A DNA stretch of 21,623 nucleotides, taken from positions 1 to 21,623 of the IMG/VR virus record IMGVR_UViG_3300050124_000070; one strand, 5' to 3'. The stretch's first letter is position 1; each line of letters begins with the position of its first letter. Below, in pieces: positions 2,998-17,214 of the stretch. Source of the stretch: a virus. Under the pieces are notes generated by a model that saw nothing but the letters and a program-made list of their open reading frames with translations, was not told the origin of the DNA and searched no databases. A program made the translations under genes and the position numbers.

Positions 2998-3066
2998 ATG
3001 GAAAACTCATTAAATAGGTTGGAGGAATTAATATGTTATGGATTAAAATTGTTCTGGCTTCTTTAG
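2998..3066 (+). CDS. Possible 22-residue leader ORF overlapping the next gene
   Basis: An ATG at 2998 with a fair ribosome site (GGAAGGGA, about 7 bases upstream) opens a 22-codon frame ending at TAG 3064-3066. It overlaps the start of the 51-residue membrane-protein gene in another frame, and the ribosome site of that gene lies inside it. It may only couple translation between the two genes, or may be meaningless. The peptide ends in hydrophobic residues (LFWLL). Confidence 0.2.
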   Translation: MENSLNRLEELICYGLKLFWLL

Positions 3067-5128: not shown

Positions 5129-5635
5129 GTGGAACAGATTACAAAAGCACAAATTAAATCTATATATGCCCTTGGAGCTTCGCTGAGCATGGTTGAAAGA
5201 GATAATCACGACGATGCCCTGCATCAGCTCGTCGAGGGACTGACAGCGAAAAATTCAGTCACAACGCTAAGCTTCGATGAAGCAAAGCAGGTTATTACCG
5301 AGCTCATGAGCCGCATGCGCGGCAGCCACGTTCCCCCAGCCCCGCCCATATCCAAGCCTAAAAAATATGACGAGACGCCGGGAGGTGTCACAGCCGGTCA
5401 GCAGCGCAGGGTATGGCAGCTTATGTACGAGCTTAAAAAGTTCGACCGACAGCCGGTATCAGCCACGCTCGGAAATCGGTTATGCGGGGTTATAAAACGT
5501 CAGTTTGGCGTTGATGCTTCAGCTAAAAAACCAATGCAATTTTTAAATTACCGTCAAGGCGTACAGCTGATTGAAATGCTCAAAAAATACTGCGCAAACG
5601 CGGAGACGCGCCACATGCGAGGTGAGAGCGGATGA
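5129..5635 (+). CDS. Mu gp16 / GemA-like regulatory protein (DUF1018)
   Basis: 168 residues from a GTG at 5129 with AAGGAGGG 6 bases upstream. It has the two-part layout of the gp16/GemA family. An N-terminal helical region runs TKAQIKSIYALGASLSMVERDNHDDALH and on (the stretch where family members read K.I...K..GLDDDTYR). A proline-rich linker PPAPPISKPKK follows, then a C-terminal region starting G-V-T-A-G-Q-Q-R-R-V-W-Q-L that ends with the helix pair QGVQLIEMLKKYC. In Mu, GemA affects host gene expression and DNA topology early in lysis, and its gene overlaps mor. Here too the next gene, a Mor homologue, overlaps this stop by 4 bases (ATGA). The family call is good; the detailed role is inferred from Mu. 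Confidence 0.8.
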   Translation: MEQITKAQIKSIYALGASLSMVERDNHDDALHQLVEGLTAKNSVTTLSFDEAKQVITELMSRMRGSHVPPAPPISKPKKYDETPGGVTAGQQRRVWQLMYELKKFDRQPVSATLGNRLCGVIKRQFGVDASAKKPMQFLNYRQGVQLIEMLKKYCANAETRHMRGESG

Positions 5636-5943
5636 ACCTGATCGATAAAATCACGGTTGAGGATCTCGAAGGCGAGCAACGAGATCTGACAGAACTCATC
5701 GGGATAGATTTATACAAGAAGCTCGTGCTTACTTATGGGGGTTGTAACCTCTATATTTTCAAGGCGGATACGCTCATCAAGGGAATACGGGATAAAGAGA
5801 TTATTAAAAAATTCAACGGGTTTAATGCGCAGGAACTCGCCATTGAATACAACATCAGCGAGCGCACCATCCGCGAGATTACCTCGGACACATTACGAGA
5901 GATTAAAGCGCGACCGGTGGATGGCCAAACAAGTTTTTTATAA
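5632..5943 (+). CDS. Mor-type middle transcription activator
   Basis: 103 residues; the ATG at 5632 overlaps the gp16-like stop. Mor-family proteins are dimeric activators that turn on phage promoters lacking a usable -35 box. Residues 1-50 form the dimerisation part (DLTELIGIDLYKKLVLTYGG and on). Residues 61-84 are the helix-turn-helix: FNGFNAQELAIEYNISERTI with R-E-I following. This is the last gene before a strong terminator at 5966, so it closes the early operon, and its likely target promoter lies just downstream (6000-6125). Mu itself has Mor and the related C. Only one member of the family is present in this window, which matters for how the late genes are switched on. Confidence 0.88.
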   Translation: MNLIDKITVEDLEGEQRDLTELIGIDLYKKLVLTYGGCNLYIFKADTLIKGIRDKEIIKKFNGFNAQELAIEYNISERTIREITSDTLREIKARPVDGQTSFL

Positions 5944-5965: not shown

Positions 5966-5998
5966 GAAGCACTTCATTGAAGTGCTTCATTATTTTTC
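5966..5998 (+). terminator. Strong intrinsic terminator after the Mor-like gene
   Basis: A perfect 10-bp stem, GAAGCACTTC (5966-5975) with GAAGTGCTTC (5979-5988), has a 3-base loop and is followed by ATTATTTTT. It ends the early operon 22 bases after the stop, separating it from the gp25-27/LoaP operon. Confidence 0.85.
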
Positions 5999-6056: not shown

Positions 6057-6097
6057 GCAGCCCGGCCGCCGTCGAACAGGGGCGGCGGCCAGGCTGC
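6057..6097 (+). other. GC-rich 15-bp hairpin in the 5' leader of the middle/late operon
   Basis: The arms GCAGCCCGGCCGCCG (6057-6071) and CGGCGGCCAGGCTGC (6083-6097) pair over 15 positions with one C-A mismatch and an 11-base loop. No T-run follows, so it is not a standard terminator. It lies about 30 bases before the ribosome site of the gene at 6130. It could stabilise the message or act as a regulatory site. Confidence 0.6.
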
Positions 6098-6129
6098 CAA
6101 TTAACTGATAATATCATTCGGAGGAATTT

Positions 6130-6477
6130 ATGACAATAACACAACTCCTTCAGGTCGTTGCAATTATACTTACAATTGTTATTTTTGTACTGACTATCAT
6201 TATTGGAATCATCGGTTTTTTTCTGCGTCGAACCATCGGTGAAGTTGATCAAAATTCCGATGAAATAAAAGTGATAAAAAAAGACTTTGTGACAAGAGAT
6301 GAACTTAAAACTTTTAAGGATGATCTGAAAGACGATGTCAAAAAGTTATCCGACAATATAGATGATATCAAGGATAACTATATAAAAAAGGATGATTTCG
6401 TGCGGTCAATCGCGGACACTAATAGCCGACTGGAACGAATATATAATTTCCTGCTTGGTATGAATGGAGGCAAATGA
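6130..6477 (+). CDS. Membrane-anchored coiled-coil protein, Mu gp25-like (DUF2730-like)
   Basis: 115 residues; ATG at 6130 with GGAGGAA 5-6 bases upstream. One long transmembrane helix covers residues 5-33 (LLQVVAIILTIVIFVLTIII and on), followed by R-R and a charged coiled coil from about 38 to 108 with D/K-rich heptads. This shape and place (first of three genes before the small terminase) match Mu gp25 and the DUF2730 phage proteins, whose function is not known. Because the three-gene order agrees with Mu gp25-26-27, the call is partly by synteny. An Rz-like or holin-type role is a weaker alternative: there is no endolysin nearby. Confidence 0.65.
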   Translation: MTITQLLQVVAIILTIVIFVLTIIIGIIGFFLRRTIGEVDQNSDEIKVIKKDFVTRDELKTFKDDLKDDVKKLSDNIDDIKDNYIKKDDFVRSIADTNSRLERIYNFLLGMNGGK

Positions 6478-6817: not shown

Positions 6818-7390
6818 ATGAAAAATCGTAAGCACGGTGTTATTGACGGCCTTGCCCCCGCTCTTAAAGAGACCGTAGAAGAAATGCTGCTTACAGGCAG
6901 CACCTATGCTGATATAGTAAATTACCTCATCCAAAATGATATTTCCATATCGCTTTCATCTATATGCAGGTATGCGAAACAATACAATGCGAGCGTGGCC
7001 ATGTTAAATGTGGCCCAGGAGAATTTCCGGCGCATGATGGATGAAATGGATAAATACCCTGACCTTGACACTACGGAGGCTATGATACGGCTCGCCAGTC
7101 AGAACGTATTCAATGCGCTGGCGAATACGGAAGAAGATCAGTGGGCAAAGATCGACAAGGATAAACTCCTTTCGTCTGCCCTCGGGCTCGTCCGTGCAGC
7201 AGCGTATAAGAAAAAGGTAGATATATCCGTCAAGAACGATATGGATACCGGCCTCGAGGCTGTGAAGAACCTTGTATGGGAAGCTATGGCTCAGGAAAAT
7301 CCGGCGCTGTATAAAGAGGTTGCCTCTTACCTTAAAACAAAAAAAGGCCAGGGCGTTATAAAGCCCACAGGAAAACCAAAAGCCCATTAA
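6818..7390 (+). CDS. Mu gp27-like small terminase subunit (DUF3486-like)
   Basis: 190 residues; ATG at 6818 with AAGGGGG 7 bases upstream. Residues 23-56 carry a helix-turn-helix: LLTGSTYADIVNYLIQN, then ISLSSICRYAKQY. Long helices follow (MLNVAQENFRRMMDEMDK and on, LDTTEAMIRLASQNVF), and the C-terminus is basic (KTKKGQGVIKPTGKPKAH). The order HTH, helical oligomerisation region and basic tail is that of DUF3486 proteins, the TerS of Mu, which recognises phage DNA for packaging. In Mu the TerL gene follows directly. Here a NusG-family gene and a structured RNA lie between, and the TerL is of another lineage, so TerS and TerL come from different phage groups. Confidence 0.78.
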   Translation: MKNRKHGVIDGLAPALKETVEEMLLTGSTYADIVNYLIQNDISISLSSICRYAKQYNASVAMLNVAQENFRRMMDEMDKYPDLDTTEAMIRLASQNVFNALANTEEDQWAKIDKDKLLSSALGLVRAAAYKKKVDISVKNDMDTGLEAVKNLVWEAMAQENPALYKEVASYLKTKKGQGVIKPTGKPKAH

Positions 7391-7468: not shown

Positions 7469-7990
7469 ATGAAATGCTATGTGCTGCAAGTGCTTACAGG
7501 ACAGGAAATTGAGATCCGTGAACAACTCAGGGAGCTTGGCATTGAGGTGCATGTCCCACAGGAAGAGCGCACGATCCGCAGTGGGGGCAAATGGATAAGC
7601 AGGGTTTATACACTATTTACAAGTTATGTGTTCGTGATGCTGAATGATGTAAAAGTGGATTATTACACAATAAAAAAGCTTTCCGGCGTCATCCGTTTTC
7701 TTGAGCTCCACTCTGGAGGAGCTGGAACCCTAACAGAACAAGAAACAGATTATATATTGAAGATCTGTGAGGGTGATGAACCAGTAAACGCTTCCAATGT
7801 TACGCGCAAAGACAACTTGGTTGTTCCGTTGGATGGGCCGCTTAAAGGTTATTCAGATATGGGCATCCCGATCAAGTATGATTTTCATCAAAGAAGAGCC
7901 TATTTAAATCTTTCATTATTCGGCGTTGAAAAAGAAATCACACTTTCTTTTCACTTGGTTTTAAAAAGTTCGATTACTGCCGGAGGTTGA
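7469..7990 (+). CDS. loaP: LoaP-type NusG-paralogue transcription antiterminator
   Basis: 173 residues; ATG at 7469 behind AAAGGGATGAGAG. Residues 1-105 form an NGN domain: start MKCYVLQVLTGQE, then the helix IREQLRELGIEVHVPQEE, and the signature RVYTLFTSYVFVML (46-58), equivalent to R.LFPGYVFV of NusG. Residues 113-165 form a KOW domain (DNLVVPLDGPLKGYSDMGIP, closing with strands KEITLSFHLVL). NGN binds the RNA polymerase clamp; KOW binds partners or RNA. Specialised paralogues called LoaP act as processive antiterminators at particular Bacillota operons and recognise an RNA hairpin. The gene sits between the Mu-like block and the late head genes and is followed by a long hairpin (8016-8108), so it probably controls the late operon. 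The housekeeping NusG is excluded by context. Confidence 0.85.
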   Translation: MKCYVLQVLTGQEIEIREQLRELGIEVHVPQEERTIRSGGKWISRVYTLFTSYVFVMLNDVKVDYYTIKKLSGVIRFLELHSGGAGTLTEQETDYILKICEGDEPVNASNVTRKDNLVVPLDGPLKGYSDMGIPIKYDFHQRRAYLNLSLFGVEKEITLSFHLVLKSSITAGG

Positions 7991-8015
7991 TTCGTCCCAC
8001 CGGCAAAAAAGGACG

Positions 8016-8108
8016 GTTATATCAAAAAGAGTCCGGGCCTATTTGAGCTTCCGGGTGGCGTAGCACGCCATTTGAAAGCCAAATTATAGCCCGGACTGTT
8101 TTGATAAC
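8016..8108 (+). ncRNA. 93-nt nearly continuous RNA hairpin, candidate LoaP recognition element
   Basis: Pairing found by eye: 8016-8020 with 8104-8108; 8023-8027 with 8099-8103; 8030-8038 (AGTCCGGGC) with 8089-8097 (GCCCGGACT); 8041-8045 with 8080-8084; 8047-8050 with 8076-8079; 8052-8055 with 8071-8074 (three G-U); 8056-8061 (TGGCGT) with 8065-8070 (ACGCCA); apical loop AGC. That is about 38 pairs with small bulges. It begins 25 bases after the LoaP stop and precedes a terminator-like palindrome and the TerL gene, the order expected of a put- or nut-like antitermination site. An alternative is a bidirectional terminator of the LoaP gene, since GTTTT follows the GC-rich stem, but the elaborate 50-base inner part is not needed for that. 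Confidence 0.6.
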
Positions 8109-8125
8109 GCAGCTTAAACGTTTTT

Positions 8126-8160
8126 AGCCTTTTAAAAGGCTTTTAAACGCTTTTAAATTT
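8126..8160 (+). terminator. Terminator-like palindrome before the late genes
   Basis: AGCCTTTTAAAAGGCT (8126-8141) is a perfect 16-bp palindrome, read as a stem AGCCTT/AAGGCT with a TTAA loop, followed by TTTAAACGCTTTTAAATTT. The run is interrupted, so this may be a weak intrinsic terminator that stops transcription before TerL unless antitermination occurs. TTTAAA hexamers recur here at 8131, 8142 and 8152 (and CTTAAA at 8113). Confidence 0.45.
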
Positions 8161-8162
8161 GC

Positions 8163-8217
8163 GGGCAGGTCTCAGCGCGGGCAAGTTTACCCCCCTGCCC
8201 CTCACACGCACCTGAGC
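8163..8217 (+). other. GC-rich leader able to form two competing stems upstream of TerL
   Basis: GGGCAGG (8163-8169) can pair with CCTGCCC (8194-8200). Alternatively CTCAG (8171-8175), with flanking GG, can pair with CTGAG (8212-8216) and following CC. The two stems interleave, so they are either mutually exclusive or form a pseudoknot. The region is the last 90 bases before the TerL ribosome site. A regulatory role is possible but unproven. Confidence 0.35.
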
Positions 8218-8256
8218 CGTTACAGCGGTAGTTATTGTGGAGGAGGATGATGAGCT

Positions 8257-9579
8257 TTGACCGAGCTGAAAACAAAAAGCTTAAACAAGCTTTATAGTGA
8301 CTTTTTCTATCAACCGGAAGCCAGTAAAAACATCCATAAGATATCTGCTCAGACAATCAAAAAGCTTATCGCTCCGTCCTTTTACGATCTTGACAAAGAT
8401 GTTCGCGCAGCTGCGCATACTCACTACTGGCTCAACGGTGGCCGTGGATCCACCAAGTCATCATTCGTAAGCACTGAAGTTATTGCTGGAATAATGAATG
8501 ATCCGATGGCAAACGGTATTATCTATCGAAAAGTCGGAGAAACGCTCAAGGATAGCGTATATGGGCAGCTGCTTTGGGCGATTAATGCGCTTGACGTAAG
8601 TGAACTCTGGGATGCAAAAGAAAGCCCCCTGCAGCTGAAATATAAGCCGACAGGGCAGGTCATTATTTTCCGAGGACTGGATAAGGCCAAAAAGTCAAAA
8701 TCCATAAAGCTCAAAAAAGGCTATTTCAAGTACATCTGGTTTGAGGAAGTTGATGAATTTGCTGGCATGGAGGAGCTGCGCGTGGTGCTGCAGTCTCTTA
8801 TGCGTGGCGGCCCTCAATTCATTGTATTTTATTCATACAATCCACCTCGTTCACAAAGGAACTGGGTTAACCTCGAGGTGCTGCAGGTACGGCCCGATCG
8901 GCTCAGGCATCACAGCACATATCTTACGGTGCCACGTGCTTGGCTTGGAGAACAGTTTTTTATTGAAGCCAAACATCTTGAAGCAGTCAAGCCCGAGAAT
9001 TACCGACATGAATATCTCGGTGAAGTAATCGGTACCGGCGGAGAAGTTTTCGCCAATGTGACAATCAGACGGATAACAGACGAGGAGATTGCGGGAATCC
9101 CCCGCCATCGTCATGGCGTCGACTGGGGCTATGCCATTGATCCGTTTGTGTGGATTGCTGACGGCTTCGATCGCAAAAAAATGCGCCTGATTATCTATGA
9201 CGAAATATTCAAGGTTGGGTTAAGCAACAGAAAGGCCGCTGAGGCGATCAAACAGCATGGCGGAGCGGGAAAAGAAATCCACGCAGATTCTGCCGAGCCA
9301 AAGAGCATCGCTGAGGTGCAGGGTTATGGGCTGCTCATTCACGGAGCCAAGAAGGGCCCTGATAGCGTTGATTATGGTATCAAGTTCATTCAGGATCTCG
9401 AGGAGATTATCATAGATTCCGAACGTTGCCCAAACGCTGCGCGTGAATTTGTGGAATATGAGCTTGAACGCGACGGTAATGGAAACTTTAAAGCAGGGTA
9501 CCCTGATAAAAATAACCACTGCATCGATGCTACAAGGTATTCACTTGAGGACGATATGAAAAATAAGAGGGTGGTGTGA
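8257..9579 (+). CDS. terL: Terminase large subunit, PBSX/SPP1 type
   Basis: 440 residues; the packaging ATPase and nuclease. The start is TTG at 8257, with AGGAGG 10 bases upstream; the next in-frame ATG is far inside the ATPase domain. The ATPase shows Walker A GGRGSTKSS (residues 61-69) and Walker B YIWFEEVDEF (159-168) with acidic E163/E164. The nuclease shows the three expected acids: D289 (GVDWGY), D344 (HADSAEPK) and D424 (HCIDATRY). The length fits the SPP1 gp2/PBSX family rather than Mu gp28, although the small terminase upstream is Mu-like. It is the first gene of the head operon and lies downstream of the long RNA hairpin and the terminator-like palindrome. Confidence 0.95.
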   Translation: MTELKTKSLNKLYSDFFYQPEASKNIHKISAQTIKKLIAPSFYDLDKDVRAAAHTHYWLNGGRGSTKSSFVSTEVIAGIMNDPMANGIIYRKVGETLKDSVYGQLLWAINALDVSELWDAKESPLQLKYKPTGQVIIFRGLDKAKKSKSIKLKKGYFKYIWFEEVDEFAGMEELRVVLQSLMRGGPQFIVFYSYNPPRSQRNWVNLEVLQVRPDRLRHHSTYLTVPRAWLGEQFFIEAKHLEAVKPENYRHEYLGEVIGTGGEVFANVTIRRITDEEIAGIPRHRHGVDWGYAIDPFVWIADGFDRKKMRLIIYDEIFKVGLSNRKAAEAIKQHGGAGKEIHADSAEPKSIAEVQGYGLLIHGAKKGPDSVDYGIKFIQDLEEIIIDSERCPNAAREFVEYELERDGNGNFKAGYPDKNNHCIDATRYSLEDDMKNKRVV

Positions 9580-17185: not shown

Positions 17186-17187
17186 CA

Positions 17188-17214
17188 AGGGGGGCTTTCG
17201 CCCCTCTTTATTTT
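17188..17214 (+). terminator. Intrinsic terminator after the tail tube gene
   Basis: AGGGGGGC (17188-17195) pairs with GCCCCT (17200-17205) with one or two bulged G and a short TTTC loop, followed by CTTTATTTT. It comes 3 bases after the tail tube stop, inside the late operon. Confidence 0.65.

Follow-up and report, generated by a model that had tools for sequence, protein, structure and literature searches.

The locus and its genes

The window, that is, the whole stretch of DNA analysed here, is a virus contig of 21.6 kb (21,623 nt; IMG/VR IMGVR_UViG_3300050124_000070). It contains genes for a Mu-type transposase and a transposition ATPase (Pfam Mu-transpos_C, 5.4e-13; phrog_310 and phrog_296), for GemA (Pfam, 3.2e-20) and for a member of the Mor family, a gene complement by which it is classed as a Mu-like transposable phage. 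Downstream of a gene for a Terminase_3-type terminase large subunit (TerL) lie those for an SPP1-type portal and for head and tail proteins, up to the tape measure. The following features concern us here.

5632..5943, + strand: Mor/C-family transcription activator gene (Pfam Mor, 3.3e-12; PHROG 'late transcriptional activator', 2.2e-14)
5966..5988, + strand: intrinsic terminator-like site 3' of the Mor-family gene (10-pair stem with T-rich tail; 11-nt perfect inverted repeat)
6818..7390, + strand: Mu gp27-like gene, terminase small subunit according to PHROG (Pfam Phage_Mu_Gp27, 4.8e-14; phrog_426, 3.1e-25)
7469..7990, + strand: gene (loaP) for a LoaP-like NusG paralogue, the proposed antiterminator (NCBIfam LoaP as best model; PHROG antiterminator; fold match 8f5g)
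7979..8004, + strand: P1, UNCG hairpin GCCGG-A-GG[UU]GA-UUCG-UC-CC-A-CCGGC, the proposed LoaP docking site (conservation in both search directions; covariation)
7981..8064, + strand: RAGATH-28 RNA (RF03052; 46.6 bits against a gathering score of 45.3)
8020..8106, + strand: P3, the long hairpin, interpreted as the terminator of the leader (z -8.5; inverted repeat; position of the T-tailed hairpins of relatives)
8033..8054, + strand: P2, CCGG 8033-8036 paired with CCGG 8051-8054, short in the window and with a 5' arm common to P3 (RAGATH-28 alignment; P2 covariation in relatives)
8056..8064, + strand: conserved tail TGGCGTAGC, which is TGGCGNAGC in relatives (pattern and alignment)
8111..8160, no strand: TTTAAA repeats spaced by 10-11 nt, a conserved DNA-level element (spacings in relatives; units in the window taken directly from its sequence)
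8257..9579, + strand: TerL gene, which opens the late operon after the leader (Pfam Terminase_3, 1.1e-33; Terminase_3C)
17187..17208, + strand: intrinsic terminator within the late operon, between the genes for the major tail protein and the tail chaperone (9 pairs, 6 of them G-C; T-rich tail)

The Mor/C-family gene at 5632-5943 corrects the first-pass annotation, which had seen no C-like gene, and its product probably acts at the upstream end of the cascade. The terminator-like site at 5966-5988 could perhaps be the end of the early transcript. After the Mor-family gene, a 15-nt inverted repeat (6057-6097, 93% complementary) occurs directly upstream of the extended -10-like sequence TGATAATAT (6106-6114), and the leader implied by the latter would be very short, with the next ATG at 6130. 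We regard 6057-6114 as a candidate Mor-type activated promoter.

The NusG paralogue ending at 7990, already recognized in the first reading of the sequence, was confirmed by matches to Pfam NusG (1.1e-12), PHROG 'transcription antiterminator' (2.3e-23) and NCBIfam LoaP (2.8e-30), as well as by its predicted structure. The LoaP model, NF033641, was the top NCBIfam model with 105.6 bits, under its curated cut-off of 125, and we therefore designate the protein LoaP-like. Its AlphaFold2 model (mean pLDDT 92.7) had as best PDB match 8f5g, an entry with the sole title 'NusG-RNA complex' and which we take to be LoaP, with a superposition over the full length (Z 17.8, 165 residues, 2.4 Å; 23-26% identity in the structure alignment), whereas ordinary NusG and RfaH trailed with Z ≤ 13.1. 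The NGN and C-terminal domains are accordingly modelled in the arrangement of the LoaP-type NusG-RNA complex. With numbering inferred from the 8f5g alignment, the position of LoaP E40, a residue that RNA binding requires in Bacillus, is Ile in the window, with the same E to I replacement in most relatives, and the counterpart of LoaP R41 is R37, with arginine in at least 90% of them.

The RAGATH-28 RNA and its association with loaP

RAGATH-28 begins at the end of loaP, across the stop codon (7988-7990), which sits inside P1, and finishes within the 93-nt hairpin found downstream. The invariant block of this RNA, GGUUGAUUCGUCCC, can be arranged into a hairpin composed of GG, a UU bulge, GA, a UUCG loop, UC and CC, with a GCCGG/CCGGC extension (7979-8004). 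The LoaP of Bacillus velezensis acts on the dfn and mln leaders, and in the former it depends on an RNA hairpin of the UNCG type, downstream of which lies a NusA-dependent terminator (PMC12691694). By analogy, P1 is the type of hairpin that Bacillus LoaP binds, the two being likened at the level of their UNCG type.

We searched with a pattern of the RNA, GGTTGATTCGTCCC N42-72 TGGCGNAGC, which holds no information on the protein, and obtained matches in 69 contigs, 36 viral and 33 bacterial, with all the named bacteria belonging to the Clostridia. A LoaP-like gene was found directly upstream of the RNA in the 33 bacterial loci and in 33 of the 36 viral loci, and the three remaining contigs end 69 nt upstream. 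Two more RF03052 matches that escaped the pattern (L089 and L090) were also accompanied by LoaP. Many of the loci are metagenomic and of common ancestry, and removal of near-duplicates left 51 distinct ones.

In the protein-first direction, alignments of two LoaP groups led to 45 loci, several of which share phages with the RNA-first set, which makes the two directions less than wholly independent. The P1 core appeared soon after loaP in all 36 uncut loci of the LoaP clade (23 + 13), and was absent from the eight distant NusG-like loci of other phages (L127-L134; 22-29% identity). The core, GGUUGAUNCGUC, is thus located beside LoaP in both searches and across the whole phage clade. The tail persists in 12 of the 13 LoaP-clade loci from one protein-first set and in all 23 intact loci from the other; L123 possesses P1 without a recognisable tail. 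The Rfam threshold was passed by 11 of the 14 tested loci that the pattern had missed, and by none of four controls; two phage records from a protein search, with 39% and 30% identity, conserve the GGCGAAGC tail and fall under this threshold. RF03052 produced only three matches in 291 Clostridia genomes, indicating that RAGATH-28 is rare per species. By a strict criterion, 11 cellular LoaP genes, whose targets may be further away, showed no such hairpin within around 1.5 kb.

The protein-first loci contain the loop variants UUCG, UACG and UGCG, and two closing pairs of the core switch from G-C to A-U, as fits a true UNCG hairpin. Likewise, P1 and P2 covary, their arms pairing far better with their own than with swapped partners among the 51 distinct loci; the lower P1 pair beside the core was C-G in 29, G-C in 15, A-U in 6 and U-A in 3 of 63 cases. 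The pairs at the UUCG tip were absent from the prediction made with RNAfold only.

Other structures were considered and discarded. RNAalifold suggested that the UUCG loop pairs with the GGCGAA tail, an option rejected because UACG and UGCG loops occur with no matching change in the tail. In a possible outer helix enclosing P2 (GGGYAU/AUACCC), native pairing was hardly above swapped pairing (27 of 51). The region 7979-8015 was also judged by eye for a pseudoknot or a ribozyme-like fold, but P1 is favoured by the RAGATH-28 structure and covariation. Additionally, L125 and L126 have, near position 3030, the P1 core variant GGTTGATTCGCTCC, whose altered tip is at odds with the usual GA/UC pairs, and the phage fragment L123, which contains a loaP gene with P1, also harbours a type II hammerhead ribozyme at 174-237 (RF02276, 51.4 bits).

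The long hairpin, terminators and the late operon

The 93-nt hairpin at 8016-8108, credited in the first-pass annotation with about 38 pairs, is real: the segment folds as a single hairpin of 36 pairs (-47.4 kcal/mol; z -8.5), and none of 200 shuffles was as good. The base stem of P3, 8025-8038/8089-8102, is AGTCCGGGC/GCCCGGACT and is followed by GTTTTG, with a short T run. The 93-nt hairpin lies at -35 to +33 with respect to the end of TGGCGNAGC, matching the position of the terminator in relatives; in loci of the Lachnospiraceae type, P2 and TGGCGNAGC are enclosed by a hairpin (for example GGAACC...GGTTCC) with TTTTTT after it. The 5' arm of P3 also builds P2, and the two hairpins should therefore compete.

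Compact intrinsic terminators were found between the RNA and the terminase gene in 22 of the 51 loci, as compared with 2.2 expected from shuffles; when long hairpins were allowed, the figures were 38 of 51, including the window, and 11.7. A first score, with free loop size, had a background of 46% of shuffles, and a stricter score was used instead. By the criterion used, 13 of the 51 loci were devoid of a clear terminator signal. From its location at the terminator position of relatives, the 93-nt hairpin is most likely a terminator to be overcome, rather than a loading site. Furthermore, the presence of the strong terminator at 17187-17208 inside the late operon implies that read-through would need to be processive, and not local.

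The 93-nt hairpin had been advanced as the site of LoaP loading, and it is indeed far more stable than chance and situated between loaP and terL. However, a conservation check close to LoaP genes singled out RAGATH-28 instead: P1, at 7979-8004, and TGGCGNAGC are the parts conserved alongside LoaP, whereas the long hairpin varies among relatives in its sequence and even in its presence. In this region, the window and its near relative L014 differ by around eight changes, close to the apex of the long hairpin and non-compensating, and long hairpins, where present, run into a T run. Recognition by LoaP of the hairpin at 8016-8108 itself is hence very improbable, and P1 is left as the conserved site.

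TerL is among the first genes after the RNA in 49 of the 51 distinct loci, and the two exceptions have less than 900 nt downstream; in the window, the TerL gene starts at 8257, confirming its initial placement after the hairpin region. The TerL families that follow the cassette in representatives are phrog_2, phrog_38, phrog_30251 and Terminase_3. Judging from these assignments, the cassette is not special to transposable phages and precedes several different terminase families.

The late genes could alternatively have their own Mor/C-activated promoter, in the manner of C in Mu, with the LoaP-RNA pair merely tuning loaP or the leader. Such an arrangement would agree with the presence of a Mor/C-family gene and of an inverted repeat upstream of the extended -10-like sequence (6057-6114), but scanning of the + strand from 7760 to 8256 revealed no promoter-like site, including the strong promoter that the first-pass annotation had contemplated at 8110-8250, and promoter-like sites near the RNA are almost absent in relatives, although activator-dependent promoters can evade these scans. 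Moreover, the candidate promoter at 6057-6114 is upstream of loaP, and its transcripts would still have to cross P3. We consider a separate late promoter improbable, and antitermination from the leader the better reading.

The distance from the RNA to the first gene is mostly 95-200 nt, whereas that from loaP to the RNA ranges from -59 to +314 nt; this steadier spacing indicates that it is the terminase operon, not loaP, with which the RNA belongs. The same comparison bears on whether RAGATH-28 is a separate small RNA, or a 3' element of the loaP mRNA involved in autoregulation or stability, instead of a signal of the late operon. Its Rfam class is 'Gene; sRNA', and it overlaps the loaP stop codon in the window and in several relatives, but the terminators come after RAGATH-28 and UNCG hairpins in leaders have precedent as LoaP sites (PMC12691694), making a role restricted to loaP, or as a free RNA, highly unlikely. 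In L019, L029, L033 and L060, the gap between loaP and the RNA is 230-260 nt and seemingly includes a small reading frame rich in cysteine.

The palindrome AGCCTTTTAAAAGGCT at 8126-8141, initially described as terminator-like, does exist, but our scan returned no terminator call for it; it looks like part of the phased TTTAAA array (10-11 nt) common to relatives. CGTTTAAA-like repeats are present between the RNA and the terminase gene in most of the loci L005-L075, around nine times more commonly than in shuffles, and the spacings of TTTAAA-type repeats in relatives cluster at 10-11, 21 and 31-32 nt, which are multiples of the DNA helical turn. These phased repeats look like a DNA-level element, such as a packaging site or a bend.

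A proposed LoaP-like late switch and known systems

We propose that a LoaP-like processive antitermination switch operates at the head of the late operon, loading on P1 and passing P3, and assign to this reading a probability of about 0.8. LoaP antitermination into the late operon, as first suggested, is strongly supported by two-way conservation, the UNCG-type hairpin, the terminators, the position of the terminase gene and the protein structure, while the hairpin then designated for loading has to be exchanged. Transcription would reach loaP from upstream, and the promoter involved may be one that the Mor/C-family protein activates. At low LoaP, polymerase would halt at the terminator hairpins between RAGATH-28 and the terminase gene (here P3, 8020-8106), whereas accumulated LoaP would bind P1 (7979-8004) in the nascent RNA, join polymerase via its NGN domain and, probably, counteract NusA as in Bacillus, in such a way that timing would depend on its dose. 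The resulting terminator-resistant polymerase would pass P3 and later terminators, for example that at 17187-17208, and the genes from terL through the tail would be expressed. The most likely cascade would thus lead from the early genes to the Mor-family activator, the loaP transcript, LoaP on P1 and, finally, the head and tail genes.

Counting against the switch are the score under the LoaP cut-off, the apparent change of E40 to Ile, the 13 of 51 loci with no clear terminator and the short T run of P3, together with the tested cellular LoaP loci lacking the hairpin within around 1.5 kb and the UUCG tip pairs missed by RNAfold. A bolder version, which we put forward only tentatively and think doubtful, is a two-part control RNA in which LoaP on P1 and the invariant TGGCGNAGC would favour P2 over P3, combining refolding with processive antitermination in a dedicated late switch widespread among Clostridia phages across unrelated terminase types.

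Many viruses of gut Clostridia carry a LoaP-like gene and a conserved hairpin before their particle genes, an arrangement that very probably allows polymerase to pass a stop signal and turn these genes on. Prophage loci of Anaerotruncus colihominis DSM 17241 (L059) and Ruminococcus bicirculans 80/3 (L049) are among the examples. A NusG-paralogue antiterminator is the likely late switch in many gut prophages of Ruminococcus, Lachnospiraceae, Anaerotruncus and Gemmiger, in which late control is little known, and GGUUGAUNCGUCC beside a NusG paralogue could serve as a marker for late operons. For the Rfam family RAGATH-28, whose function we found described nowhere in the literature searched, we also propose a role, which an existing biochemical system (LoaP, NusA and leader terminator) makes testable. 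The same literature, in which RAGATH-28 goes unmentioned, showed no link between LoaP and phages by title or abstract, and an earlier mention of RAGATH-28 with LoaP is possible.

In phages lambda (Q and N) and HK022 (put), late or delayed genes are turned on by polymerase ignoring terminators. N and put work through RNA hairpins and Q binds DNA; put needs no protein and N is unrelated to NusG, whereas the factor proposed here is a NusG paralogue. Late control in phage Mu depends on Mor and C. Like Mu, the window has transposition genes, GemA, a Mor-family activator and a gp27-like gene, but it differs in its single Mor/C-family gene and in having an antiterminator gene and a leader before the head operon. 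The RNA of the window scores above the gathering score of Rfam RAGATH-28 (RF03052), a model that ends at GGCGAAGC and gives no function, and which is tied here to LoaP and a late operon. The closest parallel is with LoaP of B. velezensis (PMC12691694), with which the phage system shares a NusG paralogue, a UNCG-type leader hairpin, an intrinsic terminator downstream and an operon with further terminators. Conversely, the phage protein is only 23-26% identical to 8f5g and under the LoaP model cut-off, its RNA adds the part comprising P2 and TGGCGNAGC, and the setting is that of a phage, before terminase and head-tail genes, with loaP directly upstream of its own target.
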